Shown piece after piece: positions 6,306-26,361 of a stretch of 64,000 bases of DNA. This stretch comes from Paenibacillus sp. FSL H8-0548 (GTDB lineage Bacteria > Bacillota > Bacilli > Paenibacillales > Paenibacillaceae). The stretch lies in assembly GCF_038630985.1 (NCBI RefSeq), contig NZ_CP152049.1, positions 4,607,501 through 4,671,500 on the forward strand, written 5' to 3'. Both the position numbers and the translations under genes were made by a program. The notes beneath the pieces were generated by a model. That model ran no database searches. It saw only the letters and a list, made by a program, of their open reading frames with translations, and was not told the DNA's origin. Numbering within the stretch: position 1 is the stretch's first letter; every line of letters begins with the position of its first letter.

Positions 6306-7805
6306 TTATTCCATAGTTAGGCTCTCAAACGCTTTATACGCTATATTCCATGCTTCAGAGTGTTCCGGTGCATATTCCTCGATCGGAAACGAGGCGGCAA
6401 CAAGCTCGCGCGACTCCTGCAAATTAGCGCACTCTCCCAGCGCGACGAGCTGCATGAGCATGTTGCCGATCGCGCTCGCTTCTACCGGACCTGTCCAAAC
6501 AAAGCGACCAATCGCATTCGCCGTTAGCTGGCAAAGCAGCTTGTTCTGAATGCCGCCGCCAACCATATGCAGTCCGCTGAACGACTGCTCCGTCAATTCC
6601 TCCATTTGAGTAAGCGCATGACGATATCGAAGTGCTAGACTCTCCAATATACAGCGGGCGATTTCCCCAACCGACTCTGGAACTGGCTGTGACGTTTGGC
6701 GACAGTAGGCTTTAATACGGCCTATCATGCCGGATGGCGCATAAAAGGAAGGATCATCAGGATGAATGAAGCTGCGGAACGGCTCTGCGCTTTGTGCTTG
6801 AACAACGATTTCCGCAAACGAAAGCTTGCTGCCCTGCTCATCCCACTCCCGCTTGCACTCCTGCAAAATCCACAGCCCCATTATGTTTTTGAGCAGCTGA
6901 TAGGTTCCACCGACCCCGCCCTCGTTAGAAAAATCCAGCGCCTGAGCCTCTGGTGTAACAATCGGGTGCTCAAGCTCGGTACCGAGCAGCGACCACGTCC
7001 CACATACGAGATAAGCAAATGGCAGATCCCCCTTCGCAGGAACAGCGGCAACTGCAGACTCTGTATCATGCGTACCGACTGCAACCGCAGCCATTGGCGA
7101 AGCATCCAGTTCCGCACAAATGTCGGGCGATAAGGTGCCGAAGATCGTACCCGGATGAATCGGCTCCATAAACAGCTGGCTCGGAATGCCGAGCTGATCC
7201 ATTAGCGCTGTATTCCACTGCTGCTCCTTTGGGTGGTACAGCTGCGTCGTCGTAGCCATTGTAAATTCGCATACCTTCTCGCCTGTCAGGAAATACGCCA
7301 GCAGATCAGGTGTAAGCAGCAGCGTGCTAGCCACATCGAGCTTAGGCGAATTCGCCTTTTTCATCGCATACAGCTGATTGATCGTATTAAAGGGCATGAA
7401 CTGCAAGCCGCCCTGCTCATACAAGCGATCTTTGCCGATCAGCTCGCTAAGCTCTTCTACGATCCCTTCTGTTTGGGAATCGCGATAATGATAAGGATTG
7501 CCGAGCAGCTCTCCACTCGCATCGAGCAATCCAAAGTCTACGCCCCAGGTATCAATACCAAAAGCCTGAGGAGCAAAGCCTTCTTGAAAGGCTTTGCGAA
7601 TAGCAGTCTTTAGCTCCTGCAGCAACCTTAAAATGTCCCAGTGCAAATGACCTCGCACTGCTATCGGTTCATTTGGAAAACGATGAATTTCGGTTACCTT
7701 CAGCTGTTTCCGTCCGCTTGCCTCATCAGGCAGCAGCTCGCCGATTAACGCTCTGCCGCTGCTGGCGCCTAGATCAAATGCGAGCACAGTCGCAAGCTTC
7801 GTCAT
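6306..7805 (-). CDS. FGGY sugar kinase, rhamnulokinase-like, probable L-fuculokinase
   Basis: ATP-dependent sugar kinase of 499 aa with the FGGY-family phosphate loop FDLGASSGRALIG at residues 10-22, the catalytic-type GIDTWGVDFG segment, VAVGTHDTESAV, and the C-terminal adenine-binding loop HMVGGGIQNKLLCQLTA. Overall it resembles RhaB (L-rhamnulokinase) more than classical FucK. Because it lies between fucose aldolase and fucose mutarotase genes and no rhamnose gene is nearby, its job here is most likely to phosphorylate L-fuculose to L-fuculose-1-phosphate. AAGGAGG stands 8 bp before the ATG. Substrate promiscuity toward L-rhamnulose or L-xylulose is possible. Confidence 0.85.
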   Translation of the reverse strand: MTKLATVLAFDLGASSGRALIGELLPDEASGRKQLKVTEIHRFPNEPIAVRGHLHWDILRLLQELKTAIRKAFQEGFAPQAFGIDTWGVDFGLLDASGELLGNPYHYRDSQTEGIVEELSELIGKDRLYEQGGLQFMPFNTINQLYAMKKANSPKLDVASTLLLTPDLLAYFLTGEKVCEFTMATTTQLYHPKEQQWNTALMDQLGIPSQLFMEPIHPGTIFGTLSPDICAELDASPMAAVAVGTHDTESAVAAVPAKGDLPFAYLVCGTWSLLGTELEHPIVTPEAQALDFSNEGGVGGTYQLLKNIMGLWILQECKREWDEQGSKLSFAEIVVQAQSAEPFRSFIHPDDPSFYAPSGMIGRIKAYCRQTSQPVPESVGEIARCILESLALRYRHALTQMEELTEQSFSGLHMVGGGIQNKLLCQLTANAIGRFVWTGPVEASAIGNMLMQLVALGECANLQESRELVAASFPIEEYAPEHSEAWNIAYKAFESLTME

Positions 7806-7857
7806 GCTTAGATCCTCCTTGCTTGATGACTGACGTATGCCTTGCGGCGACAGCCAA

Positions 7858-8517
7858 TTACTTCATCTTTTGCAGCAATTCAATGCGGTACGCTTCGCTT
7901 TCAAGCGATGCGATTTCTTCAAACTCTTCCTTTGTCAGCACCTTAGGCTCGCGAATGGCTTTGGCGATCAAATATATTTTCGTGCTTTCCTCTACGACCT
8001 CGGTCCGGTAATAGGCTTCACGCAAATTGCGCCCGGATGTTACTAAGCCGTGGTTGCCAAGCAGCACTGAGCTCGCTTCATTCACCTTTGCTACATAAGC
8101 ATCAGCAAGCTTATCTGTCGTTGGAAGAACATACGGAACGTAAACCGTTTTACCCACGAGTGCCGCTTGGTCCGGGAACATGATGGGAAGCTCCTGCTCC
8201 ACTAATGTAAAAGCGATACAATAAGGCGGATGCGTGTGAACGATCGCCCCAATATCTGGATTCGCGCGGTATGCATAAAGATGCATCAGCACCTCAGACG
8301 ATGGACGAAGACCAATATCGGTAATTTCTCCAGAATCGATGTCTACCTCGACCCATTGATGCGGTTCCACCTCATCAAGCGCGAAGCCGCTTGGCGAAAG
8401 GTACATTTTACCCTCGAATTTAGCGCTTATATTACCGCCTGGTCCTACAACCAGCTTATTTGCTACTGTTTTGCGCGCATATTTGCATAGCTCATTACGA
8501 ATGTCTGCACTGCTCAT
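7858..8517 (-). CDS. fucA: L-fuculose-1-phosphate aldolase (class II)
   Basis: Zinc-dependent class II aldolase of 219 aa that splits L-fuculose-1-phosphate into dihydroxyacetone phosphate and L-lactaldehyde. The zinc-binding HTHPPYC segment (AIVHTHPPY) and the downstream LLGNHGLVTSG histidine motif are both present, as is the phosphate-binding GGNISAK near residue 27. Length matches FucA (~215 aa). It lies 15 bp downstream of fucI in the same operon. AraD/SgbE-type epimerases share this fold, but they are slightly larger and would not fit the isomerase-kinase-mutarotase set. No lactaldehyde-processing gene is found nearby, so the fate of lactaldehyde is encoded elsewhere. Confidence 0.9.
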   Translation of the reverse strand: MSSADIRNELCKYARKTVANKLVVGPGGNISAKFEGKMYLSPSGFALDEVEPHQWVEVDIDSGEITDIGLRPSSEVLMHLYAYRANPDIGAIVHTHPPYCIAFTLVEQELPIMFPDQAALVGKTVYVPYVLPTTDKLADAYVAKVNEASSVLLGNHGLVTSGRNLREAYYRTEVVEESTKIYLIAKAIREPKVLTKEEFEEIASLESEAYRIELLQKMK

Positions 8518-8532
8518 TGTGATGCCTCCAAT

Positions 8533-10323
8533 TTATTTATAGATGGGTCCAAAATTTTGACAAGCCCGGTAATCCGCGCTTTCCGCATTCGCTGTGCCGA
8601 ACAAGCCCCATGCTCTTGGACGGAAAATTTGCTCTTCAGGAACATTGTGCATATTAACCGGAATACGAAGCATCGATGCGAGCGTAATCAAATCAGCTCC
8701 GATATGCCCATAGCTGATCGAGCCGTGATTCGCCCCCCAATTGTCCATAACCTCATAAACGGAGTGGAAAGCGCCCTCGCCTGTCAGTGTTGGAGCAAAC
8801 CAAGTGGTCGGCCAAGTTGGGTCTGTGCGGTTGTCCAGCGTGTCATGCACGTCCTGCGGCAAATCAACGGAATAGCCTTCGGCAATTTGAAGCACTGGAC
8901 CGATTCCTTTCACAAGGTTAATCCGAGACATCGTCATCGGCATACCGCCGCGCGTCAAGTAATCAGAGGAATAGCCGCCGCCGCGGAAATATTCTACGGA
9001 AGCCGGACGCCAAGATGTGGCATCCAGACATTTCTGTGCTTCTTCGTCTGTAATTTCCCAGAAAGGCTTCATCGCAGGCTGACCGTCCTTCGACTGCTCG
9101 CCCGTACCGTCCATCGTTGCAGAACCTGAGTTAATGAGATGAAGGATGCCCTTCTCAGCTGCGCCCGTCAGCTTATGTCCGGTAACACGCTCCACCGATT
9201 CAGCGCTCCAGTATGTGCGTACATCTGCGAAAATTTGTGCTGTATTCGTTAGCAAGTAACCAAACAGCATGATCACGCCGTTCAAGCTGTCATTTTCCGT
9301 TGCCACGATATACGGAGCACGTTTGCCGTTCCAATCGTAGGAGGAGTTCAGCACCGTTTCCATGAAATCGCCATTTGGAAAATGATCCGTCCATTGCCGC
9401 TGGCCTTGGAATCCGGCTACGATAGCGTTGTGGCCTCCCGCTTCTTCACCAAAGCCAAGCTCAGCAAGCCTTGGGTTGCCAACCATGAGATCCCTGGCGA
9501 TTTGAGTCATTTTCACAACCGTTTCCCAGTCCGCATCCTTCTGCTCTCTTGAGGTCTGGAGATGTGCAGCATTGTTATCCGGACCTTCGATGCAGTTCTC
9601 CTTCACCCACGTAAGCGCTTTCTCGAACTCTGCGCCATCATAAATTCCTTCTTCCATACGGCGTACAAACTCGCTCATATCAATATATTCCGTACGCATG
9701 CCGAGATACTCCTGGAAAAAGGCATCGTTTACGATCGATCCCGCAATCCCCATAGAAACCGAGCCCATCGACAAATATGATTTGCCGCGCATATAAGCAA
9801 CTGCAAGACCCGCTCTCGCAAATCCAATCAGCTTATCTTTCACATCAAATGGAATCGAGGTATCGCCGGAATCCTGAACATGCTCGCCATAAATACCAAA
9901 TGCAGGAAGCCCCTTTTGCGCATAACCGGACAAAACTGCGGCCAAATACACAGCACCAGGACGCTCTGTTCCGTTAAATCCCCATACCGCCTTAGGAACG
10001 GAAGGGTCCATATCCATCGTCTCGGTTCCGTAGCACCAGCACGGTGTTACGGTTATCGATACCCCTACTCCGGCTTTGACAAATTTATCTGCACAAGCTG
10101 CTGCTTCAGACACACCACCAATACAAGTATCTGCGATTACACACTCGACAGGCTCGCCATTTGGATAACGTAAATTTTCCGACAATAGCTTTGCGGTTGC
10201 GATAGCCATGTTCATCGTCTGTTCCTCTAACGACTCGCGAACGCCTTTTCTTCTGCCGTCAATCGTAGGACGAATTCCGATCTTTGGAAAGCTGCTTTGG
10301 AAACGCAAATTTGTATCCGTCAT
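8533..10323 (-). CDS. fucI: L-fucose isomerase
   Basis: Mn-dependent ketol isomerase that converts L-fucose to L-fuculose, the first step of the pathway; 596 aa from the chosen start, the usual FucI length. Family segments include [24 protein letters not shown] in the first 40 residues (quoted in part: [18 protein letters not shown]), [32 protein letters not shown] and [17 protein letters not shown] near the C-terminus. The reading frame opens 15 bp earlier, but that upstream ATG lies inside the GGAGG ribosome binding site. The ATG at 10323 has GGAGG eight bases ahead and is the real start. It heads the operon, and a LacI-type operator lies inside its promoter. D-arabinose is a known alternative substrate of this family. 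Confidence 0.93.
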
Positions 10324-10341
10324 GAATAAAACCTCCATTAA

Positions 10342-10369
10342 GTTATAATAATGTTACCGATAACATCAA
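10342..10369 (-). promoter_or_regulatory. fuc operon promoter overlapped by LacI operator
   Basis: On the minus strand TTGATG (10364-10369) and TATAAC (10342-10347) are 16 bp apart. The spacer and part of the -35 are covered by ATGTTACCGATAACAT (10351-10366), whose outer arms ATGTTA/TAACAT are a perfect inverted repeat around a CG centre, as is usual for LacI-family operators. Binding by the divergently encoded LacI protein would block the promoter directly. Confidence 0.75.
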
Positions 10370-10386
10370 AATAACAATAAAAAAGG

Positions 10387-10416
10387 TTGCTGTCAATGAC
10401 TACTTTTTTGTATGAT
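10387..10416 (+). promoter_or_regulatory. Probable promoter of the LacI-family gene
   Basis: TTGCTG (10387-10392) and TATGAT (10411-10416) are 18 bp apart and start 35 bp upstream of the LacI gene. The fuc operator lies ~20 bp further upstream, so the regulator may also affect its own expression. Confidence 0.5.
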
Positions 10417-10450
10417 AGAAACTATGATTTATCAATAAGGGGACTATGAA

Positions 10451-11461
10451 ATGATTACGATATACGATGTTGCGGCCAAGGCCGGCGTCTCCGCAATGAC
10501 CGTCTCCAGAGTTATCAATAACACTGGCAAAATAAGCGATAAAACAAGAGCAAAGGTACAGCGCGTTATGGAGGAGCTAGGATATGTGCCGAATCAAACG
10601 GCTCGAAGCCTCGTACTCCAGCAGACCAAGCTGCTTTTCCTGCTCATCACCGATATTATGAACCCGTTCTATACAACACTTGCACGCGGAGCCGAGGATG
10701 CCGCCAAACGTTCCGGCTACAGACTGCTGTTTGGCAATAGCGATGAAAGCTTGGAGAAGGAAGCCGATTATGTCACAACGATTTTGACGACTCGCGTGGA
10801 CGGCGTGCTCGTTGCGCCTGCCGGCGACCCGTCGCTTCCCCATCTCGAATCGCTGCGCAAGCATAACGTCCCATTCGTGCTGCTCGACCGTGAAGTGCCG
10901 GGCATTGCTTGCGACATCGTGCTAGGCGATAGCAAGGACGGCGCAAGACGTCTTGTCGAGCATCTTGCCGTGCACGGTCATAGAAGCATTGCCATGGTGA
11001 ACGGCTCACCATCCATCTCAAGCGCACGCCTGCGGCTGCAAGGATTTCAAGACGGATTAAAGCTCAGCGACCTTGTGTATGACGAGCAATACGTTTTTGA
11101 GAGCAGCTTCGGTCCGATTAACGATTTGACTGAAATGGGACAGTGGCTGGATCAGCTAAACCCGCCTCCAACCGCAATTGTTGCGGGCAACAACGTGCTC
11201 GCCGTCGAAATATTGCGCCTCCTTCGCAGCCGCGGAATAAGCGTGCCTGAGCAAATGTCGATCGTTTGCTTTGATGATCTCGGACCCTACTCGGAGGTGG
11301 AGCCCTTCTTAACGGTAGCTGCACAGCAAGCGTATCAATTCGGTTATATGGGGATGCAAATGCTCGTTGAGCGCATTCAAGAAAAGGAAACAATATTGCC
11401 GTGGAAGAAAATTGTTTTGCCAGCGGATTTGATCATACGAAGATCTGTGAGAAGCCTATAG
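10451..11461 (+). CDS. LacI-family regulator of the fucose operon
   Basis: Sugar-responsive DNA-binding repressor of 336 aa. The N-terminal helix-turn-helix (TIYDVAAKAGVSAMTVSRVI, residues 3-22) and hinge helix (YVPNQTARSLVLQQT) are canonical. They are followed by a periplasmic-binding-protein-like effector domain (LLFLLITDIMNPFYTTLARG, VDGVLVAPAGDPSLPH, GHRSIAMVNGSPS). It is transcribed away from fucI, with a matching palindromic operator in the fucI promoter, so it very likely represses the fuc operon until fucose or a fucose phosphate is present. A ribosome-binding AAGGGG lies ahead of the ATG. The effector is inferred from context. Confidence 0.88.
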   Translation: MITIYDVAAKAGVSAMTVSRVINNTGKISDKTRAKVQRVMEELGYVPNQTARSLVLQQTKLLFLLITDIMNPFYTTLARGAEDAAKRSGYRLLFGNSDESLEKEADYVTTILTTRVDGVLVAPAGDPSLPHLESLRKHNVPFVLLDREVPGIACDIVLGDSKDGARRLVEHLAVHGHRSIAMVNGSPSISSARLRLQGFQDGLKLSDLVYDEQYVFESSFGPINDLTEMGQWLDQLNPPPTAIVAGNNVLAVEILRLLRSRGISVPEQMSIVCFDDLGPYSEVEPFLTVAAQQAYQFGYMGMQMLVERIQEKETILPWKKIVLPADLIIRRSVRSL

Positions 11462-14839: not shown

Positions 14840-15420
14840 GTCCTATCGCAAATGTGCTTGTCTATCCTGCACATTTGCAGTAACAGACTATCCACCGAAC
14901 ACAGTAGATTCACCTCCGCACGCAGGCTATCCTGCACATTTGCAGTAACTTCGCGCTTTTTGGCCTTCCTGAGCAGCCTATCCTGCACTTATGCATTAGA
15001 ATTGACTGATTTCGACTTAAGATACACCTGTGAAGCCCTCTACAGTGCTAGCGTGCAACATAGATATGCGGGAGCTCGAAAAACCAGCTGCTATCCTGCT
15101 ATAGTGCAGGATAGCGCAGTAGTTGGTTAGTTGAAGAGCCCCTTGGAGAACGGGTTGGAGGGTTAGATCTAGGTTAGTCATACATTTACTCCGAACACGA
15201 ACGTCCGCTTCCTCCGCACGCAGGCTATCCTGCACATTAGCAGTAACTTCGCGCTTTTTGGCCTCTCTGAGCTGCCTATCCTGCACTTATGCATTAGAAT
15301 TGACTGATTTCGACTTAAGACACACCTATGAAGCCCTTTATAGTGCGGACGTGCAACATAGATACGCGGGAGCTCGAAAAACCAGCTGCTATCCTGCTAT
15401 AGTGCAGGATAGCATTGGAG
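14840..15420. repeat. Family B four-module repeat, two tandem ~300-bp units
   Basis: Two head-to-tail units start ~300 bp apart (compare 14917-15114 with 15217-15414, nearly identical). In each, an 18-bp module CTATCCTGCACNTTTGCA occurs twice forward and twice reversed; in unit 1 at 14927, 14978, 15046 and 15097. Arm spacing is 51 bp on both sides. A third, inverted copy lies at 36660-37035. No credible gene is found here; the short open frames run through the repeat itself. This explains most of the 990-bp gap between the cupin and GH2 genes. Confidence 0.85.
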
Positions 15421-15700: not shown

Positions 15701-18700
15701 TTATCCCAAAATCCATCTCGCCAGCATAGCAATATCCACGATATCTACAATACCATCGCCGTTCAGATCTGATTTCTTGTACTGCGACCAATCAGCATCC
15801 GTGCTTTTCTTGCCATAGACAGAAGCCACAATAGCCAAATCTCCGATCGTTACCTTCTGGTCGTTATTAATATCGCCTGATATTACCGAAGCCTTAAATA
15901 CGCTAACGGCGTCGTTAAGCTCCGTAATTGCCGTTTTCACTTGTTCTTCAGAGGTATCTGGATTAGCCGCTGCTGTCTGAGCTTTAGAGATCGCTTGACC
16001 AAGCGCTGCTTTGGCTGCTGCTGGATATTGGCCAGGCTGTGTACCTGCTGTCGCTCCATTATAGGTGGCCTCTGCTGCTGCAATTGCAGCTTTTAATGCC
16101 GTCAAATCCACATAAGCACCGATCTGTACTGTATGAGCAGCACCAGTCACCATAAGCTCATTGCCCAGGTGATTTGCCACCTCTATATTGCCAATCGATA
16201 TTTCTGCGAGAGATGAAGCTGCTGCTGCTTTCGTCAAGAAGCTAAGCTTCAGCCATTCTGTATTAGCAGCTATGCCGCTGCCTTGACCTGCTGCAATAAT
16301 CCGAACCTTGCCTGGCTCTATGAGCTTCTGCTCAACAATGCCGAATCCTTCCTTCAAGGAAGACGCGCCCGATAATTCGAGCAGATTAGGGTCAAAGCTG
16401 ATCGTCAAAATTTGTGCATACAGCGTTTGGAATTTTTCAGCTGTAATTTTGGATAATGCAACGTTTAAATCAAAGGCTTCCCCTGCTTTCACCTGTGCAG
16501 CACCCGTAATTACAGCCGTAGGCTCATCGGAAGCTGCAGGTATAACGGAAGCTGCAAATACTGCCGACGCTTCATTCAATGCTGTTACCGCCGCCTCAAC
16601 AGCTGATTGATTAACATTCATGTCAACCAATACGCCATTAGCCGCGGCAATAGCTGCTGCAAAAGCAATCTTTGACGCTTGTGAATATTGCCCCGGCTCC
16701 GTACCCACTACTGCTTTATCATGCTCAAGCTCGGCCGCGGCAACCGTAGATTGAAGAGTCGCCTTGTCAACGGTTTCTACTGGTCCAACCGAGAAATAAT
16801 CAAAATTCGCATGAATCGCAACCTTATCCGTCGAAGATAGGCCATAGAAGCCCACCTTCAAATTGCTTAGATCTACAGTCATTGGATCTGCTGCTGGCTT
16901 CCAAGCGATACCGTCCCAATAAAAGGTTGAAACCACATTGCCGACCTTCTTCATTTGCAAATAAGAAGTGTCGTAGCCTGGGTGGCTGGCCATATTGGTC
17001 GCTTTTACATACTTCGCATTTTTCTCATAGGCCGTTTCCAAGCTTTTTCCGCTCGCACCCTCCGTATCCCAAACATGGCCAAGCTTGACGTAATTATCTT
17101 CATTTTGCCAAATAAAAAGTCCGGCCTGCTGGAAATTTCTGCTTACGGGAGCTTCTACTTTGGCTGTGATGACGAAGTCGCCCGATGGCGCATCCTTCAA
17201 AAATATATTCGATAAGTTATTTTGTCCTTGGAAAGTATCGCCCGCCGACGTTTCTAGGCTCAAAAATCCTGGTTTACCCGTCAGTGACCACTTGCTGTTA
17301 TCGGCCTTGAATACGGTCCATGCTTTATCCAGTACCGCAGCTGCAAACGGATCAACCGTTGAGCTTGCTGGGATCGGATCATTCACAGATATAAACCATT
17401 GCTCACGCGCATTCTGAAGTGACTTCATCGCTGTCTGTAATTCATCTGGCCTAACATTCGGTTTTTCAGCTGCATCACGAGCAGATTGCACAGCGCTGCG
17501 ATATGCATCTTGGACTGCTTGCTTATACTCGCCAGCCCCATTTCCAGCCTTTGCATGCTGAAGGGACGCTTCAGCTTTGGCAATTTCAGCTAGCAAATCC
17601 GCTGCCGTAACCGTACCGATAAGCTCATGATGCGCCTTTGTAATGAGATCAAAATCCATCTTTTCAACCTTACGGTCATATGACAGCAAGCCATTAATCT
17701 CGTACTCTACATCTGTAATTTGCGTATAAATAGCTGCGCTGAGTCCTGTCTCCTTCAATTGCTTAATTGTATTAATATAAGCAATATAGGTGGATGTCAG
17801 CTGCTCCTTGCTGTTCATTAATTGATAAGAGAATACGAGCGGGCTCCATTCATGTCCGGGCACATGCAAGCCAAGACCCCCATATTCACCTAGAACCGCT
17901 GCCCTTGTGTCGCTTGGTTCCGGTGAGCCTGGACCCGGGTAACGATGCATATCCAGTAAATCTCCTGCGCCGGCATCCCACCAGCCGCTTGTGCTGTTGA
18001 CCAGACGAGTCGAATCAAGTCCTTTCACATAGGCTGTAGCATCCCTCGTTTGCTGTCCGCCTTGGTCAAATTGACCCCAACCCTCGTTAAACACTGTCCA
18101 TACGACAATAGAGGTAACGCTTCGAAGCTGATCTACCATTTCCTTGTATTCGGCAAACCACTGTGTCTTCGTAGGCTGTGTAATGTCTGATCCTTTTTTA
18201 TCTTGTCTATCCTCAAGACTCGGCATATCCTGCCATACAAGTACGCCAAGCTTATCAGCCCAATAATACCAACGGGCAGGCTCGATCTTAATGTGCTTGC
18301 GGATTGTGTTCATTCCGACACGCTTTACCGCTTCGATATCGAACCTCAAAGCTTCATCTGTAGGCGCTGTGTAAATACCATCCGGCCAGTACCCTTGATC
18401 AAGCGGTCCCATTTGGAACACGAATTCACCATTTAATAACGGCCGAGTAATACCATCGACTTTGCCTAGTTTAATTTCTCTCATGCCAAAATAGCTTGAG
18501 ACCTCATCAACGGTTTGCGCTCCAGCCTTCAAATAAACCTTTAAATCATAAAGATAGGGATCATCGGGAGACCATAGCCTCGCGTTCGGTACAGGGACAT
18601 TAATCTCCGCGCCCACTGCGCCAGCAGCAGAGCCAATTATTTGTCCATTGGAAAAAACAACTGCTTCAACCGTTTGACCTTGAATGCCGCTGCCGGCAAC

Positions 18701-20197
18701 GTTCAACTTCAGGACACCGTCATGAATATCGGTCACCATATCCAGCTTGTCGATGTGCGCTGCGGCAACAGGCTCTAGCCATACGGTCTGCCAGATGCCC
18801 GACGCTGAAGTATACCAAATGCCGCCTAGCTTTTTAACCGTTTGCTTGCCAACCGCTTGGTCTGCACCCATATCCGTCTCATCAAGCACATGAACGATAA
18901 GCTCATTGTCGCCTGGGACAAGATAATCGGTTATGTCAAAGCTAAAGGAAGTATAACCGCCCTTGTGATTGCCTACCTCTTGACCATTCACATAGACCGT
19001 TGCCAAATAATCAACTGCGCCAAAATTAATTTTGACACGCTGCCCGCTCCAATTGTCAGGAATGGTGAAGGAACGTTTATACCACATCAGATCCTCCACG
19101 CGATTAATGCCCGAGAGCTTCGCTTCTGCCGCAAAGGGAACGACAATTTTTTCTTTCAGCGTTTGGCCGAAAGGTACTGCCTCGCCCTTCCTAGCCGCTT
19201 GAAACTCCCACTCGCCATTCAGATTGCTCCAAGCCTCCCGCGCTAATTGAGGTCTTGGATATTCCGGCAGCACATTTTGGACATCCACATCCTCTGCCCA
19301 TGGCGACATGATCTGATATTTCGAGCCATTCACGAGCGGCTTATCGAAGCCTGCTACGACAACGCCTACCAGCGTTTCCAGACCGCCTTGCCCGTCATAA
19401 ATAACTTTGACATTTCCTGCATCCTTCGAATACAGCGCTTGCTGCAGCGTAACGACAACGATCTTGTCATTGCCTTCCTTCAAAGCGACAGAGGCGATAG
19501 GCAAGCTGCCTGACTCTATATTCAGCTTTAGATGATTGATCAGCTCTGCGGATACAGGCTTTAATGAATTTTCAAACAGCAGCTCAGCGTGGATACCATC
19601 CTCCTGTACCATTCCGCCAGGTACAAAGCCGTCAGGCAAATAAAACGCTTTTGAAGGGACGGCTTCCTTCGTTACGCTGGGGCTCGCCCAGTACATATGC
19701 ATATTAGAGCCGCCATTGTCCTCAAAAAACTCAAGCTTCATGCTGTATTTCTGTCCTGCGACTAGCTTTACTGGCATCGAGGTTTGTTCTTTGTCCCAAT
19801 CGGCAACCCAATGATCGATGGTTAGCTTCTCGTCAATCCAAAGCCGGAAACCATTATCTGCTGTAATATAAAAGGTATAGTCCTCCGAAAATTCAGGCTG
19901 GATAAATCCCGTCCACCGTATACCAACACGATTTTCTTGTCCTGTGAACATTTTTATCGCTGGTTCAAGATTTGAAATGTCCAAATGCGGATCAAAACCT
20001 ACTCCCTTAAAGGTTTCAAACGTAAAGTTAGGCCCCCCTCCTACTGTGTAATATTCCGACTTCAGTCCATGATATTGAGGAGCTGTCTCTGCTTCTGCCG
20101 CTGCAGCGCGCGGTACAAATGAAAAAGCGGATGAGACAATACTAAAAACCATAGTAATTGCAAGCAGCATACTTATTGATTTTTTTCTTGTTAACAT
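15701..20197 (-). CDS. Secreted multimodular GH2 glycosidase with PA14, FIVAR, cohesin and dockerin modules
   Basis: Extracellular enzyme of 1498 aa from the ATG preceded by GGAGG; the frame opens 36 bp earlier. Order: signal peptide (1-34), PA14 carbohydrate-binding module (~40-185), GH2 sugar-binding, immunoglobulin and TIM-barrel domains (~285-850), FIVAR (~866-932), concanavalin-like sandwich (~950-1136), FIVAR (~1140-1210), cohesin (~1222-1356), FIVAR (~1362-1436), dockerin (~1440-1498). The GH2 acid/base is E705 in FNEGWG and the nucleophile E771 in LGEYGG. The dockerin has two Ca-binding loops (DINNDQKVTIGDL and DLNGDGIVDIVDI). Beta-galactosidase or a related exo-activity is likely; the substrate is not readable. 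It is last in an operon with a GH127 enzyme and an SLH-cohesin anchor. FIVAR, cohesin and dockerin modules also occur together in clostridial toxin-like glycosidases. Confidence 0.88.
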   Translation of the reverse strand: MLTRKKSISMLLAITMVFSIVSSAFSFVPRAAAAEAETAPQYHGLKSEYYTVGGGPNFTFETFKGVGFDPHLDISNLEPAIKMFTGQENRVGIRWTGFIQPEFSEDYTFYITADNGFRLWIDEKLTIDHWVADWDKEQTSMPVKLVAGQKYSMKLEFFEDNGGSNMHMYWASPSVTKEAVPSKAFYLPDGFVPGGMVQEDGIHAELLFENSLKPVSAELINHLKLNIESGSLPIASVALKEGNDKIVVVTLQQALYSKDAGNVKVIYDGQGGLETLVGVVVAGFDKPLVNGSKYQIMSPWAEDVDVQNVLPEYPRPQLAREAWSNLNGEWEFQAARKGEAVPFGQTLKEKIVVPFAAEAKLSGINRVEDLMWYKRSFTIPDNWSGQRVKINFGAVDYLATVYVNGQEVGNHKGGYTSFSFDITDYLVPGDNELIVHVLDETDMGADQAVGKQTVKKLGGIWYTSASGIWQTVWLEPVAAAHIDKLDMVTDIHDGVLKLNVAGSGIQGQTVEAVVFSNGQIIGSAAGAVGAEINVPVPNARLWSPDDPYLYDLKVYLKAGAQTVDEVSSYFGMREIKLGKVDGITRPLLNGEFVFQMGPLDQGYWPDGIYTAPTDEALRFDIEAVKRVGMNTIRKHIKIEPARWYYWADKLGVLVWQDMPSLEDRQDKKGSDITQPTKTQWFAEYKEMVDQLRSVTSIVVWTVFNEGWGQFDQGGQQTRDATAYVKGLDSTRLVNSTSGWWDAGAGDLLDMHRYPGPGSPEPSDTRAAVLGEYGGLGLHVPGHEWSPLVFSYQLMNSKEQLTSTYIAYINTIKQLKETGLSAAIYTQITDVEYEINGLLSYDRKVEKMDFDLITKAHHELIGTVTAADLLAEIAKAEASLQHAKAGNGAGEYKQAVQDAYRSAVQSARDAAEKPNVRPDELQTAMKSLQNAREQWFISVNDPIPASSTVDPFAAAVLDKAWTVFKADNSKWSLTGKPGFLSLETSAGDTFQGQNNLSNIFLKDAPSGDFVITAKVEAPVSRNFQQAGLFIWQNEDNYVKLGHVWDTEGASGKSLETAYEKNAKYVKATNMASHPGYDTSYLQMKKVGNVVSTFYWDGIAWKPAADPMTVDLSNLKVGFYGLSSTDKVAIHANFDYFSVGPVETVDKATLQSTVAAAELEHDKAVVGTEPGQYSQASKIAFAAAIAAANGVLVDMNVNQSAVEAAVTALNEASAVFAASVIPAASDEPTAVITGAAQVKAGEAFDLNVALSKITAEKFQTLYAQILTISFDPNLLELSGASSLKEGFGIVEQKLIEPGKVRIIAAGQGSGIAANTEWLKLSFLTKAAAASSLAEISIGNIEVANHLGNELMVTGAAHTVQIGAYVDLTALKAAIAAAEATYNGATAGTQPGQYPAAAKAALGQAISKAQTAAANPDTSEEQVKTAITELNDAVSVFKASVISGDINNDQKVTIGDLAIVASVYGKKSTDADWSQYKKSDLNGDGIVDIVDIAMLARWILG

Positions 20198-20275
20198 AAA
20201 TTGAACCTCCAATAAATCATAGTAATAAAGCATCCTTTATAAGGAGGAAGTGATGTCCCTTCCTCCCAGATTCAT

Positions 20276-23200
20276 TTACCCAATGATTAGTCTTGAAAGT
20301 ATAGCTAGATCTGCAATATCCACTTTACCGTCGTGATTTAAATCTGCCTTCTGGTACTGCGCCCAATTCGGCTGATCGCTAGCTTTGCCATAGGCCGCAG
20401 CTACAATAGCAAGATCGCCGACTGATATTCTGCTATCACCGTTCACATCTCCAGATAACGATGATGCAGCCGCTATTTGTATTTTGTGATTAGCATCATT
20501 AAACGTAAGCTTAGCCCCATTGCCACTCTCAAAGGTAGTGCCCGTTAAGGTAACAATTGCTTCTCCCGCTTCCTGCAACACACTCGTTTGGAAGGTCAGC
20601 TTCAGCGAATCACCGTTAGCAGCCAAGCCTTCTCCTTGCGCAGTAACTAGAATACGAACCTTTCCAGGTTCAAGCTCTTGCCGCTCGATCACACTCTCTC
20701 CTGCTTTAAGCGAGGATACGCCGGCAAGGCTTAACTTTTCAGAATCAAAGTTAACCGTAATATCCTGAACATTAACATTTTGATAAGCGCTGTCTATTAT
20801 CCCGCTCACCCCAAATGAGAGATCGATCATTTGCCCGCTCTGCGCATTTGCAGCGCCTGTTAGCTTTGCCACCGGCTCTTCCACAGGCTCTAGAACTTCA
20901 GGTTTTAATTCAGATAAGGCAATATAGTCGAGCTCATAAAAGCCCGCGCTTGCGCCTGTTCCCCTCATGAACTTAATCGAGTTAACGCCTTCTTTCAGCT
21001 CAACGTTTACGCTCGTTGCCATAAATCTGCCCCAGTTGATCGTTCCTGCGAGCTTAGCAGATAGCTCCTGATCATCATTTACGACGATTTTCGCTGTCGC
21101 TGGCTGGTAGTCATTTGTGCGCTGAGCGTACCAAAAGAACATTTTATACGCCCCAGCTTTTGGAGCATTTACTTGATCGAAGTTAACATAGCTATCTGCG
21201 TAATCGATTCCGCCTACGTAGCTTGATTCGGATGCATAGACATTATTTGTGCGTGCTTCCGTTTTAAACAGCTGAGCCTTCTCTGCTTCATATTTAGCAG
21301 GCTGTGTGTCCATATCGTCAGTTGCCTCAGGGAAATAAGTCACCCGCAGATTTTCTGCCCCGAAAGGCACAAGCGTAATATTTTCGGTAGCCTCTGCGGA
21401 GTAAACTGGTCCGACTGGCGGCTCTGCCGCTGACACACCGTTATTCGCTTTGCCCCATGACGGTATTCGCTTCCCTTTAGCTATGAGCTTAATCGGAGTC
21501 GTCTCCTGTATGAATGGATTTTCCGGCATCGGAGACGTGATCACTTCGATCGATGCGGCAGGATTTTCGCGATCAATCAATAGTCCATAATTCCACGGCG
21601 ATGCGGCATGAATGTTATATTCCTTAAACCCAGGTGCATTTACTTGAGGCGCTGGATTGAATTGCTCCACCCAGTTTTCTTCGATTTTCAAAGAGAACAC
21701 GAGTGGTCCGCGCTCAATTCCAATAGAATTGTTTACCCATGTTGAGGTTTTGATTTCCATTGGTACAGTGAGTACAACGGTATCTCCCTTTTCCCATGTA
21801 CGATCAATCGTGAAATATTGTCCAGATTTCACCGCTTGCTGCGGCTGCCCGTTCACGGTGATGGTTGCCTTTTCCGTCCAGCTTGGAATTCGCAGCTTAA
21901 GCGGGAACTTAACACTCTCCGACGCTTCTTCGATCGTAAAGCGAATTTGATCCTCAAACGGATAATTCGTCGTTTCTTTTACCGTAATATTTGCCCCTTT
22001 AATTTTTGCTGAGACGCGGCTAGGCCCGTATGCGATGACACCAAGCCCCCCATCTCCTGTGCCCGACCACATATCCTTCACAAAATACGGCCAGCCCATA
22101 TGCAAATTAAAGCGACAGCAAGGGAATCCCGAATAAGGTGATTGTACTGTGCCGTTCCCATAATTTTGCTTAAAGCCATTATCAGTAGGTGAGCTCTGTA
22201 CTTGATTAGGCAGTGAGAAATATTGATGAGTCTTAATATCCTTGCTCATGGCTCCTGGAAGCGAGTTGAATGTAATTTTCTCCAGTGCGTCCCCCATAGA
22301 AGGATCACCCGTTATCATCGCCGCAACAGCATTGCTGTGTATCCTCTCTACAATGGCACAAAGCTCAACCCCTTGCGTCGAGGATAGTCCAGCCAGCATT
22401 TCTGTTCCCGAATTCATTCCAGTAATTTGGTTATGTGACTGATCCAAATGCTCTACACCTGCATGAAAAGCATCCCTGTCCGCTTCATCCTTCGATAATT
22501 GATAATAAATAGCTGGTGTCTTAATGGATTCATTCACATTGACCGTATGCTGTGAGTAAAAATCTGCAGGATTGCTCTTGGCCGCTTCGAGAAAATTGTT
22601 GTTAGTTAAAATATCAGTCACATCTGTGCCTTGAGTATTAAGCTTTTCTGCCAATTGAAGCAGGAAGGCATCTTCAGTGCGGTTATAAAGCCAAAGCACA
22701 ACATTTAAATTGTCCCCGCTGCGTATTTGTCCCCAATCCCGTAAAGGTCGCTGATCCAAGTGGCTGTGCTGGTATTGAAAATAATTCGTTAAGAAGGAGA
22801 TGACCCGCTCATCGTTTGTCGCCTCGTAATAATCCTTCAACACATAAATGGCTACCATTCGCGGCCACCAGTCATTATCACTGGCAGGACCGAAGAAGCC
22901 GTCATCACGCTGGCTCTCCAGCATCCAGTTGACCCACTTCTGAGACTTCGCAATCAGGTCCGGATCATTCAGTGTATAGGCTAGTGCGATTAAGCCCTTC
23001 ACATAATAAATGGGGCGTTCCCAGTTCGACTCCGGTGCCGTGCCGCCTAGCCATTCCGAATTGGTGTTTAGCTCGCCGTACAAATCTTCCGCATAGCCTG
23101 TTGCTCCTTCCTTCATGAGCTCAAGCTGTTTAAGCAGCCATCCTTCCGCCTTTACAGAGCCTAAAGGGAGAGGTAGGAATGGTGTTTGAAGCAGCGGCTC

Positions 23201-24424
23201 CTTATTGGCAACAGGCTCCTTAAACGACTCGGATGGAACATAATAATCACTGGCAATAAAGTTGTCGAAAAGAGGCTTAGCGCCGTCATCCCATAAGCCG
23301 ATGCCGCCTGAAGCAAATTGCCCGCTATCGTCGTCATAGTATTCCAGAGCCGCGTTGTGCATATCATCCAAAAATACTTTAATCCCATTACCATAGGTAA
23401 CAACCTTCAACTGATAGAGCTTGCTCGTAGAGACTACATCCAATACTTTAACAACTTGGAGATCGGTCCATTCCTCGCTCAGACGGCGAAGAATCAGGCT
23501 CCCATCCCCTCTCAATCCCGCATAGTAGCCTTGAACTGATTTTCCTATTTCACTAGATTGGCTTCTAAACAAAAGCCCGGCAGCACCAGCTGTTGCCGTT
23601 AGCTGAACATCTGTCTCCACTGTAAAGTCATGAAACCGGGTATCTTTTACAAGCAGCGTTTGATTAGCTCCGTCACCAACCGTTACACCACCGGATTGCA
23701 GTTTCCAGTCCCCTTGACTCGCTTGCCAATTGGGGAGCGCTATTCCTTCGACCTCTGTATCAAACGAATCTGTGAATACAAGCTCTTGCTTGTCATCCCA
23801 TACTTGAAAAAGATCATACGTCGGCTGTGATTGATAGATTCTTGCGCCAACCTGTCCCTTTCCAAACATCGAGTCCGTTTGCTCTAAAACCAGCTGGTCA
23901 TTCACATAAAATTTAATCTGCGAGCCTTCAGCACTAACTTTAAATCGATAAACCGTGTTCGGATCAACGGTCAACTTTACACGCTTCAGCTCCGTCCAAT
24001 TGTTGTTCATTTGCCCTAGAAAAACGCTGCCGTTATCTTTAGCGGAAATGCCTGCATAATATCCCTTAACATTATCCGCGCCTGGCTCTGCGCTGACTGT
24101 GCGAAACAGTATGCCTGCATCTCCGTTGCGATTTGTGAAACTGATATCTGCTTCAACACTTCCATTCTCGAACTCCGCTTGCTTCACTAACGCTTTCGAA
24201 CCGGAGCCGCTCTCTACAGTCAGCTGTCCACTCGACGTTGACCAATTGCCGTCAATCACACTCCAATGATCATTAATAACGGATCTATTAAAATGATCTT
24301 CAAAAAATCCAGGTTCCTCTTCCGCTGAGGCATCCACGTGAACAGCAGGCAAAAACAAACTGACATACATGCTGATAATCAGCATGATGACCATTGGCGT
24401 TTTCAACTTTGCTCCGAATTTCAT
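20276..24424 (-). CDS. Secreted multimodular GH127-type beta-L-arabinofuranosidase with cohesin and dockerin
   Basis: A 1382-aa secreted enzyme. Order: signal peptide (1-33), two concanavalin/LamG-like sandwiches (~40-205, ~215-395), a GH127-family (DUF1680) catalytic domain (~415-1010), a CBM6/CBM35-like module (~1050-1180), cohesin (~1184-1324), dockerin (1325-1382). GH127 enzymes use a cysteine nucleophile held by a zinc site of one Glu and three Cys. The matching residues here are E687 and C689 in VELCAI and C769-C770 in FPCCRF, and I see no other cysteine in the protein. Dockerin Ca loops are DVNGDSRISVGDL and DLNHDGKVDIADL. Substrates of the family are beta-linked L-arabinofuranosides of plant cell walls, such as extensin glycans. 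Other clan members cleave other furanosides, so specificity is inferred. Confidence 0.85.
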   Translation of the reverse strand: MKFGAKLKTPMVIMLIISMYVSLFLPAVHVDASAEEEPGFFEDHFNRSVINDHWSVIDGNWSTSSGQLTVESGSGSKALVKQAEFENGSVEADISFTNRNGDAGILFRTVSAEPGADNVKGYYAGISAKDNGSVFLGQMNNNWTELKRVKLTVDPNTVYRFKVSAEGSQIKFYVNDQLVLEQTDSMFGKGQVGARIYQSQPTYDLFQVWDDKQELVFTDSFDTEVEGIALPNWQASQGDWKLQSGGVTVGDGANQTLLVKDTRFHDFTVETDVQLTATAGAAGLLFRSQSSEIGKSVQGYYAGLRGDGSLILRRLSEEWTDLQVVKVLDVVSTSKLYQLKVVTYGNGIKVFLDDMHNAALEYYDDDSGQFASGGIGLWDDGAKPLFDNFIASDYYVPSESFKEPVANKEPLLQTPFLPLPLGSVKAEGWLLKQLELMKEGATGYAEDLYGELNTNSEWLGGTAPESNWERPIYYVKGLIALAYTLNDPDLIAKSQKWVNWMLESQRDDGFFGPASDNDWWPRMVAIYVLKDYYEATNDERVISFLTNYFQYQHSHLDQRPLRDWGQIRSGDNLNVVLWLYNRTEDAFLLQLAEKLNTQGTDVTDILTNNNFLEAAKSNPADFYSQHTVNVNESIKTPAIYYQLSKDEADRDAFHAGVEHLDQSHNQITGMNSGTEMLAGLSSTQGVELCAIVERIHSNAVAAMITGDPSMGDALEKITFNSLPGAMSKDIKTHQYFSLPNQVQSSPTDNGFKQNYGNGTVQSPYSGFPCCRFNLHMGWPYFVKDMWSGTGDGGLGVIAYGPSRVSAKIKGANITVKETTNYPFEDQIRFTIEEASESVKFPLKLRIPSWTEKATITVNGQPQQAVKSGQYFTIDRTWEKGDTVVLTVPMEIKTSTWVNNSIGIERGPLVFSLKIEENWVEQFNPAPQVNAPGFKEYNIHAASPWNYGLLIDRENPAASIEVITSPMPENPFIQETTPIKLIAKGKRIPSWGKANNGVSAAEPPVGPVYSAEATENITLVPFGAENLRVTYFPEATDDMDTQPAKYEAEKAQLFKTEARTNNVYASESSYVGGIDYADSYVNFDQVNAPKAGAYKMFFWYAQRTNDYQPATAKIVVNDDQELSAKLAGTINWGRFMATSVNVELKEGVNSIKFMRGTGASAGFYELDYIALSELKPEVLEPVEEPVAKLTGAANAQSGQMIDLSFGVSGIIDSAYQNVNVQDITVNFDSEKLSLAGVSSLKAGESVIERQELEPGKVRILVTAQGEGLAANGDSLKLTFQTSVLQEAGEAIVTLTGTTFESGNGAKLTFNDANHKIQIAAASSLSGDVNGDSRISVGDLAIVAAAYGKASDQPNWAQYQKADLNHDGKVDIADLAILSRLIIG

Positions 24425-24514
24425 CTTGCTCCACTCCTTCAGACTTTGTTTTACAAGGCATAGGCAAGGCAGTGTTTAATCATCTGCTCGTCCCAAGAAG
24501 GCATCCTTCCCCTG

Positions 24515-25111
24515 TCACCTCCCCTCTGTTATTCGATCCAACTTGAGCTTGAATTCCAGAGGGTCTAGTAGATGAAAGGTATCAAGCACCGTTCCATCTG
24601 TATCAATAATGAATGTGGTTGGAAGTGCGTGCAGCTCGTATAAGTAAGAAGCGCGTTTATTAGCATCCAGCAGGTTTATAAAACCCCATTGATTTTGCTG
24701 TACAAATGCGCTAATATCGTCGGCTTGCTTCTCCTCCGAGGACAGGTTAATACCATAGAAGTCGATATTATTTTGATATGCCTCGTGCAGCCTCTTCATC
24801 GTTGGCGCCTCCACAGTGCAAGCCTCGCACCAGCTTGCCCAAAATTGCAGAACAATCGGTTTGCTATTCTCTCCTCCAATGGTGTACGTGTTGCCATCAA
24901 GCGCTTTTAATGTAACGATAGGAGCTTTGACACCTGCTGCGTCGCTGCGATGCAAAGCTGAGTCTTGGTCCACGCTTAAGATACGCTCCAGAGAGGCAGC
25001 ATTTAGCTTCGATCCCTCTTTGCTGCTAGAATGACTAGAATAAAAGATTAAAGCTGTACCAAAGGCAGTAGCCAGCACCAGCGCTGCAACAGTCCAAATC
25101 GAGGCTTTCAT
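24515..25111 (-). CDS. TlpA/ResA-like extracytoplasmic thiol-disulfide oxidoreductase
   Basis: A 198-aa thioredoxin-fold protein tethered by one N-terminal helix (about residues 5-25, no lipobox), so the active site faces outside. The redox motif is WCEAC (C95, C98), within VLQFWASWCEACTVEAPTM. The cis-Pro loop lies in LHALPTTFIIDTDG. A ~40-residue insert before strand 3 is typical of TlpA/ResA. Usual roles are reduction of apocytochrome c or other exported thiols, with electrons delivered by CcdA. No cytochrome or ccdA gene is nearby. Instead it sits between a cohesin anchor gene (30 bp away) and a zinc-thiolate GH127 gene (90 bp away), so a role in keeping the GH127 cysteines reduced is plausible but unproven. 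Confidence 0.85.
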   Translation of the reverse strand: MKASIWTVAALVLATAFGTALIFYSSHSSSKEGSKLNAASLERILSVDQDSALHRSDAAGVKAPIVTLKALDGNTYTIGGENSKPIVLQFWASWCEACTVEAPTMKRLHEAYQNNIDFYGINLSSEEKQADDISAFVQQNQWGFINLLDANKRASYLYELHALPTTFIIDTDGTVLDTFHLLDPLEFKLKLDRITEGR

Positions 25112-25141
25112 CCACTCTACTCCTCCCTGCTTAATTCTCTA

Positions 25142-26158
25142 TTATTTCAAATCAATTAAGGAGAGCAGCAGTGTTACTGCCTCAGCACGTGTCGCTATTG
25201 CGTTAGGAACGAATTGATTCGCGCCCCTCCCTTTCAGAATGCCTGCTTCGGCAGCCATTGCTACTGAAGGCTGCGCCCATGCTGGGATATCTTCAGCGTC
25301 AGCAAAAGTTGGTTTTTTAGCCGGATCAACTTCCCACTTCAGTGCTCGAGTAATCATTACAGCAATTTCACTGCGTTTAATTGGTGTGCTAGCCCGGAAC
25401 GTATCATCCTCATAGCCGGTAATAATGCCCGCATTCACCGCAGCTGTTACATAACCAACTGCCCATGCCGGTATGCTCCCAGTATCCTTAAACGATAAGC
25501 TCTCACTTATCTCTGTCGGCATCGAAAGAGCTCGAGCTAGCATTGCCGCAAACTCAGCTCGAGTTACTAGTGAATTGGGACGGAATGTACCATCCGTATA
25601 GCCGTTAACGAAACCAAGCTCCACAGCTCGTTCAATTGACGTTGCAGCCCAGTGTCCCGCAACATCCTTAAAAGAAATATTCACTCCTTCAAGCTGTACC
25701 TCGAATTTCATTTTAGGCTCCAATGTGACGGACTCCATTGCACTATTTACGAGCTTCACAGCGGTAAGATTTATGACCGCTTTTCCCTTTCCTAAAGCTG
25801 AAAAGTTCAAGCTGCCTAACGTAATTTTCCCATTGTCGCCTGTTTTTGGGCCTATTTTGGTCGAGGCGTATATCACTTGGCTGTCTTCAACAATAGGTTT
25901 AATAGAATAGCCTGTAATGCTTGAGCTCGCACTCTCGAAACGGAGCTGCTTGGTATCAAATTCCACCTTTAGCTCAAACGCGTACACATCCTTTAATTTA
26001 TCTCCTGTAATGTCGATCCTAATTTGCTTGTCCTGCTTATGCTGCGAAAGAATAAACACTGGCGCGTCAGCAGATGCTGCCCCTGCCAAGCTGGCGAGCA
26101 CTGAGGACAGCAATAAAACTGATAAAACAGCAAGAATAAAACGCTTACAATTCGTCAT
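25142..26158 (-). CDS. Cell-surface anchoring protein with cohesin domain and three SLH repeats
   Basis: A 338-aa exported protein. After a signal peptide (1-29, ending GAASA) comes one cohesin-like beta-sandwich (~31-158), with FELKVEFDTKQLRFESA and the hydrophobic close GKAVINLTAVKLV. Three SLH repeats follow (~163-215, ~222-275, ~283-338), each starting F-K/A-D and carrying TRAE or KRSE, the motif that binds pyruvylated secondary cell-wall polymer. This is the layout of a cellulosome anchoring protein: the SLH repeats hold it to the wall and the cohesin receives a dockerin. It is the first gene of an operon whose last two genes encode dockerin-bearing enzymes, which makes them its likely cargo. 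The pairing itself is inferred. A GC-rich hairpin and T tract separate it from the upstream operon. Confidence 0.85.
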   Translation of the reverse strand: MTNCKRFILAVLSVLLLSSVLASLAGAASADAPVFILSQHKQDKQIRIDITGDKLKDVYAFELKVEFDTKQLRFESASSSITGYSIKPIVEDSQVIYASTKIGPKTGDNGKITLGSLNFSALGKGKAVINLTAVKLVNSAMESVTLEPKMKFEVQLEGVNISFKDVAGHWAATSIERAVELGFVNGYTDGTFRPNSLVTRAEFAAMLARALSMPTEISESLSFKDTGSIPAWAVGYVTAAVNAGIITGYEDDTFRASTPIKRSEIAVMITRALKWEVDPAKKPTFADAEDIPAWAQPSVAMAAEAGILKGRGANQFVPNAIATRAEAVTLLLSLIDLK

Positions 26159-26302: not shown

Positions 26303-26341
26303 CAAAAAAAGCCGCTCTCCGATAAAACGGAAAGCGGCCCT
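26303..26341 (-). terminator. Terminator after the GH51 operon
   Basis: On the minus strand GCCGCTTTCCG pairs with CGGAGAGCGGC and is followed by TTTTTTTG, 20 bp after the stop of the Cys-rich protein gene. It insulates the cohesin operon, whose first gene starts 145 bp further on. Confidence 0.88.
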
Positions 26342-26361
26342 TCATCCATATAATATTGTTC

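Follow-up and report, generated by a model that had tools for sequence, protein, structure and literature searches.

A putative scaffold-free, cellulosome-like enzyme display operon in Paenibacillus sp. FSL H8-0548 and its counterparts across the genus

The window analysed here is a 64,000-nucleotide stretch of the genome of Paenibacillus sp. FSL H8-0548 (assembly GCF_038630985.1, contig NZ_CP152049.1, positions 4,607,501 to 4,671,500). On its minus strand, the list of open reading frames (ORFs) places an operon of four genes at 15701–26158, which encode an anchor with one cohesin and three SLH repeats, a TlpA-like protein, a glycoside hydrolase of the GH127 type and one of the GH2 type (Table 1). 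Coordinate subtraction gives gaps of 30, 90 and 42 bases between the genes, counted from the anchor to GH2. An earlier reading of this DNA from its letters (the sequence-only reading) had proposed the same operon; all of its ORFs lie where it placed them, with the expected domains in Pfam, and its central claim, that a single-cohesin SLH anchor is encoded together with two dockerin enzymes, is borne out by the ORFs, Pfam, the anchor family and the predicted fold. It had also proposed a search for the same gene order in related genomes. The window GH127 has nine long orthologs in the genus (71–77% identity), and the order anchor, TlpA, GH127, GH2 is kept at all nine orthologous loci, so the operon is not a product of chance.

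Table 1 Features of the operon and its flanks, in window coordinates. The consensus scan behind both hairpins found 15 sites against 10.7 expected in shuffled sequence.
Feature	Position	Strand	Content or basis
Terminator-like hairpin, 16 pairs	26306..26343	-	Between the upstream DUF6171 gene and the anchor gene
SLH anchor	25142..26158	-	Signal peptide; anchor-type cohesin, residues ~32-156; three SLH repeats, residues 163-337
TlpA/ResA/StoA-like thiol-disulfide oxidoreductase	24515..25111	-	Pfam, NCBIfam, orthologous loci
GH127-type enzyme	20276..24424	-	Pfam, local models
GH127 protein cohesin	20480..20875	-	Residues 1184-1315; local model
GH127 protein dockerin	20276..20467	-	Residues 1320-1382; Pfam, local model (100 bits), ligand table
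GH2-type enzyme	15701..20233	-	Pfam, local models
GH2 protein cohesin	16127..16522	-	Residues 1238-1369; local model 97 bits, Pfam genome search 37.9 bits
GH2 protein dockerin	15701..15889	-	Residues 1449-1510; FIVAR module before the dockerin
Terminator-like hairpin, 11 pairs	15387..15414	-	Downstream of the GH2 gene

In Pfam the three SLH repeats of the window anchor scored 144 bits. Its cohesin scored 15.3 bits, below the cut-off of 24.1, a point that counts against the interpretation developed below. Profile searches, which the sequence-only reading had named as able to refute it, accepted both dockerins of the operon (38.0 and 34.7 bits for GH127 and GH2, respectively) but not, at threshold, the anchor cohesin. 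We nevertheless accept this cohesin because of the anchor-family alignment, a profile comparison and a predicted-fold match. The genome encodes nine anchors, which align over ~130 positions with 11 invariant residues; five of them (at loci L020, L021, L022, L023 and L026) pass the Pfam cohesin cut-off, and four (the window, L018, L025 and L027) miss it. Compared by hhalign, the anchor cohesin profile matched six cohesins from GH3 tails with probability 94 (E 9e-8). An AlphaFold2 model of the window anchor, built from five sequences, reached a predicted local distance difference test score (pLDDT) of 79.9. Its first six matches in the PDB were SLH structures, and the best non-SLH match, at rank 7, was the cohesin 2vo8 (E 1.7e-7, TM-score 0.73 by target length). 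The window protein joins a cohesin to SLH repeats in one exported polypeptide, as SLH-anchoring cohesin proteins do, and is a member of that group whose cohesin is sub-threshold in Pfam.

Both enzymes proved to be more than the plain dockerin enzymes that had been described: the dockerins are present, but each protein also carries a cohesin. The GH127 protein consists of two N-terminal stretches resembling 3-keto-disaccharide hydrolase, GH127 catalytic (90.5 bits in Pfam) and middle domains, a CBM35, the cohesin (26.6 bits over residues 1191–1308 in Pfam; 133 bits with a local model) and, a few residues on, the dockerin. The GH2 protein consists of a PA14 domain, GH2 domains recognised by Pfam, a GH43_C2-like lectin module, FIVAR modules, the cohesin, a further FIVAR module and the dockerin; its cohesin is unlisted in the Pfam table of the window. 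By inspection of its sequence, the GH2 protein probably starts at Met13, about position 20197. Because the local cohesin and dockerin models derive from domains of this very genome, their scores on it are not independent. In both dockerins, each of the eight calcium-ligand positions examined is D or N, and that of GH127 has canonical ligands in both calcium loops; the enzymes of the operon accordingly bear two-loop dockerins and cohesins, the two module types of classical cellulosomes. A predicted structure of the GH127 tail (pLDDT 86.9; predicted template modelling score, pTM, 0.69) had cohesins as its best PDB matches, a comparison that covers chiefly the cohesin part (residues 1–141 of the model). 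Clostridium perfringens cohesins (X82) are the closest solved cohesin folds, and 2jnk/2ozn, which we take to be a FIVAR-dockerin entry, was among the PDB sequence matches. Chance or mis-called domains were ruled out by the anchor alignment, the local models, the fold matches and the profile comparison.

The operon was described as compact and minimal, but the genome contains nine anchor loci, of which it is one. A Pfam search of the whole genome (7.35 Mb, a single contig) at E <= 10 gave 30 cohesin places (25 above the cut-off) and 20 dockerin places (14 above the cut-off). All 30 cohesin places could be assigned: 18 to proteins with one cohesin-dockerin pair (hereafter Coh-Doc proteins), nine to SLH anchors, two to a single Coh-Doc-Coh-Doc protein and one to an SLH phosphoesterase-like protein (L028). 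The dockerin places fall in Coh-Doc proteins (16) and in the Coh-Doc-Coh-Doc protein (two), and two seem spurious; the local model added two degenerate dockerins, in the first protein of L018 and in L024. Each of the 18 Coh-Doc proteins has exactly one cohesin, and 17 have a recognised catalytic domain in Pfam, namely GH43, GH127, GH51, GH3, GH5, GH30, GH53, GH2, GH141-like/esterase, rhamnogalacturonan lyase 11, GDSL esterase or alginate-lyase-like; no catalytic domain was found in the second protein of L018, and no GH13 among the 18. In line with the sequence-only reading, no classical scaffoldin was found: none of the 30 assigned places belongs to a non-catalytic multi-cohesin scaffoldin. 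At all nine loci the anchor gene is the same-strand neighbour of at least one Coh-Doc gene, with the TlpA gene intervening in the window.

The only protein with more than one cohesin is the Coh-Doc-Coh-Doc protein (L020:7670-8947). It is exported, 425 amino acids long and made of two alternating cohesin-dockerin pairs without an enzyme, and its gene directly precedes an anchor gene. From its sequence, it would be a natural extender or branch piece.

Loci L021 and L026 both hold an anchor, a GH3-Coh-Doc gene and ABC transporter genes, and the printed ends of their proteins are identical or nearly so; this looks like a duplicated locus. The large SLH protein of L028 (L028:6495-10619) also has a phosphoesterase domain; its cohesin-like stretch is weak (21.7 bits) and went unrecognised by the local cohesin models.

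The pairing of cohesin and dockerin in one polypeptide holds well beyond this genome. Among the loci fetched first, the local model found an enzyme-type cohesin in 97 of 99 uncut dockerin frames, 17 of the 99 being from this genome. An enlarged set, which adds 60 stretches hand-picked from the strongest among the matches listed, holds 177 unique Coh-Doc tails against nine distinct dockerin proteins (10 rows) without a cohesin, five of which are frames cut at the end of a stretch or contig.

The sequence-only reading held that cellulosomes are not a standard feature of Paenibacillus, but cohesins and dockerins are not exceptional there: in a survey of 51 genomes of the genus at E <= 0.001, Pfam found cohesins in 44 and dockerins in 41. 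An alignment of the anchor cohesins matched 41 of the 51, 37 of them strongly (>= 89.9 bits, own genome included) and four weakly (G002, G034, G035 and G047). The survey totals are 421 places for cohesin, 266 for dockerin and 218 for the anchor alignment, which also picks up some enzyme cohesins (15 places in our genome for nine anchors). Per-genome counts of cohesins and dockerins rise together (Spearman 0.96), as do those of anchor-alignment matches, some enzyme cohesins included, and dockerins (0.91). At the level of the class, 13 of 398 sampled genomes, own genome included, gave a match to the anchor alignment at E <= 1e-4; the five matches outside the genus above 100 bits are all in genomes of the same family. 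For three of five loci the sequence led to named relatives, among them Bacillus sp. FJAT-28004, Paenibacillus castaneae DSM 19417 and P. eucommiae.

Around the best anchor of each genome we then looked for partners, in 36 of the 40 other genus genomes that matched, leaving aside the four weak ones, and in four of the seven matching genomes of the same family, leaving aside G227, G216 and G346. The anchor has a Coh-Doc frame within ~8 kb in 36 of these 40 stretches, on its own strand in all 36. The four misses are L088, whose cohesin frame runs off the end of the stretch; L093, where the contig ends ~3 kb past the anchor; L100, whose dockerin frame is cut by the contig start; and L111, where none was found. 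In some relatives (e.g. G045 and G019), one anchor is followed by several Coh-Doc genes in a row.

We favour the reading that the operon produces a scaffold-free, cellulosome-like display of enzymes on the cell surface, and consider it rather likelier than its competitors taken together. Its architecture strongly suggests that the three SLH repeats would hold the secreted anchor in the cell wall, leaving one cohesin on offer. That cohesin probably binds the C-terminal dockerin of GH127 or GH2, an attachment that would display the enzyme at the cell surface. Since each enzyme carries its own cohesin, N-terminal of its dockerin, an anchor would not be limited to a single enzyme; the enzyme cohesin could capture the dockerin of another enzyme, a step to which we give even chances. 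Short chains or mixed oligomers would then grow outwards without a scaffoldin. The eight other anchor loci carry the same anchor and Coh-Doc unit with other enzymes, and would supply several substrate-specific surface sets.

The TlpA-like protein has a place in this scheme more tentatively. It matched the AhpC-TSA/thioredoxin-like families in Pfam (68.5 bits) and StoA (71.9 bits) and ResA (68.0 bits) in NCBIfam, both under their cut-offs; it has a CxxC motif (WCEAC) and, by inspection, an N-terminal membrane segment. GH127 contains exactly three cysteines, in VELC at 689 and CC at 769–770, at the same places in all nine orthologs; in HypBA1 such cysteines form the zinc site. The window GH2 has no cysteine; among four orthologs examined, three have none and one has one. 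The E-x-C and C-C cysteines in the GH127 domain are those expected of the family, whose members are described as using a zinc-coordinated cysteine nucleophile (PMC10728902). Because the TlpA gene always adjoins the gene of an exported enzyme with active-site cysteines (nine of nine orthologous loci), its product may, speculatively, keep those cysteines of GH127 reduced.

A simpler arrangement would have one tier: each enzyme attaches to an SLH anchor by its dockerin, its cohesin takes up other dockerin proteins or stays empty, and the surface shows single enzymes, not chains. The close association of anchor and Coh-Doc genes, side by side at nine of nine loci in our genome and near each other at 36 of 40 elsewhere, suits it equally, as does the fact that the anchor cohesin is a distinct subfamily, with its 11 positions invariant in nine sequences. 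It leaves unexplained, however, why a cohesin is kept with the dockerin in 177 tails against nine exceptions, and why clusters with one anchor (G045, G019) have several Coh-Doc genes in a row. We regard it as an unlikely alternative, though the strongest one.

Still less probable is an intramolecular clasp, in which the dockerin folds onto the cohesin of the same enzyme and the closed, protected tail opens only on the anchor. The two modules are in cis, with fewer than 20 residues between model ends in 107 of the 177 tails, and the coupling between enzyme cohesin and dockerin is the tightest observed, with a partial correlation of 0.58 given the anchor cohesin (28 anchors). The spacer is variable, however: it spans at least 60 residues, room for one to three FIVAR modules, in 67 tails, and a FIVAR-sized insertion separates cohesin from dockerin in seven of the nine GH127 orthologs and is absent from two. 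Although both domains of the GH127 tail are predicted with confidence, its pTM is about the value expected from the cohesin's share of the chain, which, as a reading of scores rather than of predicted aligned error or coordinates, would suggest that no fixed mutual placement is predicted. A classical cellulosome whose multi-cohesin scaffoldin lies elsewhere, the local anchor being only one port, might have been hidden among as many as 30 cohesin places, but was ruled out, and has hardly any chance left, since every place is assigned and none is such a scaffoldin.

Besides the low Pfam score of the anchor cohesin, several results weigh against surface display by chains of docked enzymes. No anchor was seen in the fetched stretches of the Coh-Doc loci L017, L019 and L024; the nearest one to L017 is ~24 kb on, in L018. 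L017 also encodes the other Coh-Doc GH127, which falls outside the nine orthologous loci to which the TlpA-GH127 pairing applies. The cis rule is limited to one dockerin class, because dockerins at L048 (genome G047), of another type that the local model missed, come without a cohesin (dockerin in four of seven scanned proteins, cohesin in none of the four). The structure predictions are of single chains, not complexes. The distances between modules are equivocal. Those of anchor cohesins and dockerins correlate over 45 anchors (r 0.71; 0.48 given the SLH distance) and over 28 non-redundant anchors (0.48; 0.29), but enzyme cohesins follow dockerins at least as closely (0.76; 0.68 on the 28). 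Once the enzyme cohesin is controlled for, the correlation between anchor cohesin and dockerin shrinks to 0.27 on the 45 anchors, to 0.23 on the 28 and to 0.04 (p 0.41) among this genome's own nine. SLH and dockerin distances also correlate (0.62; 0.18 given the anchor cohesin). The correlations would fit matched sets of modules, confounded by linked inheritance; they are no proof of binding, because the genes of one locus are inherited together. Residue coupling between cohesin and dockerin in the 177 tails exceeds chance (mean of the top ten 0.194, against a maximum of 0.152 in 30 row shuffles), but no clear excess falls on the expected cohesin face: pairs on that face and on other strands number 7:12 among the top 30, 18:18 among the top 60 and 36:28 among the top 100, against a background of 39:45. 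The leading coupled positions look like subtype markers, and the coupling does not separate chain from clasp.

The L048 dockerins belong to a different gene set (L048:3044-19877). Its dockerin proteins contain Ig-like or NHL domains, no enzyme was recognised in them, and separate Coh-SLH proteins are encoded alongside; similar genes seem to be present in G034.

Dockerins with at most four of the eight D/N calcium ligands occur at 10 of 45 loci, two of them in this genome (L018:1841-15053 and L027:8490-14309) and the rest in relatives (L099, L102, L103, L104, L108, L109, L110 and L119), each beside its own anchor. The anchor cohesins of these loci are more alike than expected (permutation p 0.002; SLH p 0.04). 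We suggest, doubtfully, a joint extension of surface display by docked chains: that the genus has turned the cellulosome inside out, with no scaffoldin, every enzyme both plug and socket, and a wall socket of its own at each locus; that locus-specific daisy chains are kept apart by matched module classes; and that one dockerin class, which has lost most calcium ligands in both loops, docks without calcium.

The layout itself is already in print at genome level. The genome of P. guangzhouensis, described in 2024 as 'scaffoldin-containing', was reported to encode 35 proteins with cohesins, of which 28 have a single dockerin-cohesin pair, many of them with a GH domain, and five SLH-anchoring proteins, a system its authors call 'architecturally distinct from conventional cellulosomes' (PMC11557425). 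Our genome matches that description, with single cohesin-dockerin pairs on GH proteins, SLH anchors and no large scaffoldin (18 Coh-Doc proteins and nine anchors, against 28 and five there). The account covers one species in part of one paragraph, and that section gives no gene order, anchor-enzyme pairing, genus spread, dockerin classes or binding test (PMC11557425). Judged by titles and abstract openings, open-licence PMC papers yielded neither another prior description of the layout nor a study of binding between such modules from Paenibacillus. As far as these searches reach, the additions made here are the genus-wide pairing of anchors and enzymes, the conserved TlpA partner and the calcium-poor dockerin class.

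Older Paenibacillus reports fit less readily. The GASdb survey of 2010, in its passage on Paenibacillus sp. JDR-2, flagged as puzzling four surface-anchoring proteins, defined by SLH and cohesin, found no dockerins and suggested an unknown mechanism (PMC2838879); our survey, in contrast, finds dockerins in 41 of 51 genus genomes. The main text of the 2016 JDR-2 genome and transcriptome paper contains neither 'cohesin' nor 'dockerin' (PMC4765114), and P. curdlanolyticus S1, once taken as a scaffoldin, is stated by its authors to lack both cohesin and dockerin modules (PMC6823336).

Other systems share parts of the design. With the classical cellulosome of the Acetivibrio thermocellus type, as outlined in PMC11557425, it has in common cohesin-dockerin pairing, SLH-anchored cohesins and two-loop dockerins; unlike there, no multi-cohesin scaffoldin was found here and the enzymes bear their own cohesins. 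C. perfringens mostly has one module per enzyme and pairwise complexes, with one GH31 bearing both, and the part of the paper used makes no mention of SLH anchors (PMC12997984), which the anchors here carry. Amy4 of Ruminococcus bromii has both a dockerin and a cohesin, for which self-aggregation and recruitment of other amylases on a surface anchor were proposed (PMC5814915). It is a precedent for chain growth by enzymes with both modules. That amylosome, as described there, has one such enzyme, with GH13 enzymes and sortase-anchored scaffoldins; here both modules are the rule for 18 proteins, the anchors carry SLH repeats and GH13 is absent from the set.

If the enzymes dock on anchors and on each other, complexes of several enzymes on the cell surface would be common among soil bacteria of the Paenibacillus type, and so beyond the anaerobes on which most cellulosome work has been done. 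This would account for the SLH-cohesin proteins or dockerin-cohesin pairs left unplaced in the relevant passages of earlier Paenibacillus scans (PMC2838879, PMC11557425). Small modules in matched sets could serve as orthogonal connectors for enzyme display, and the calcium-poor class would allow a direct test of the need of dockerins for calcium.

The degradation of arabinan or arabinogalactan, which the sequence-only reading assigned to the operon, was not established. In NCBIfam, GH127 matched only aceric acid hydrolase (97 bits against a cut-off of 950), and the best matches of GH2 were beta-galactosidase and beta-glucuronidase models, all far under their cut-offs. Upstream of the operon on the same strand lie the DUF6171 gene and a GH51 arabinofuranosidase gene. 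A few kb downstream, at window positions 6306–11461, are FGGY kinase, class II aldolase, L-fucose isomerase and LacI genes, which make up a pentose or fucose route.

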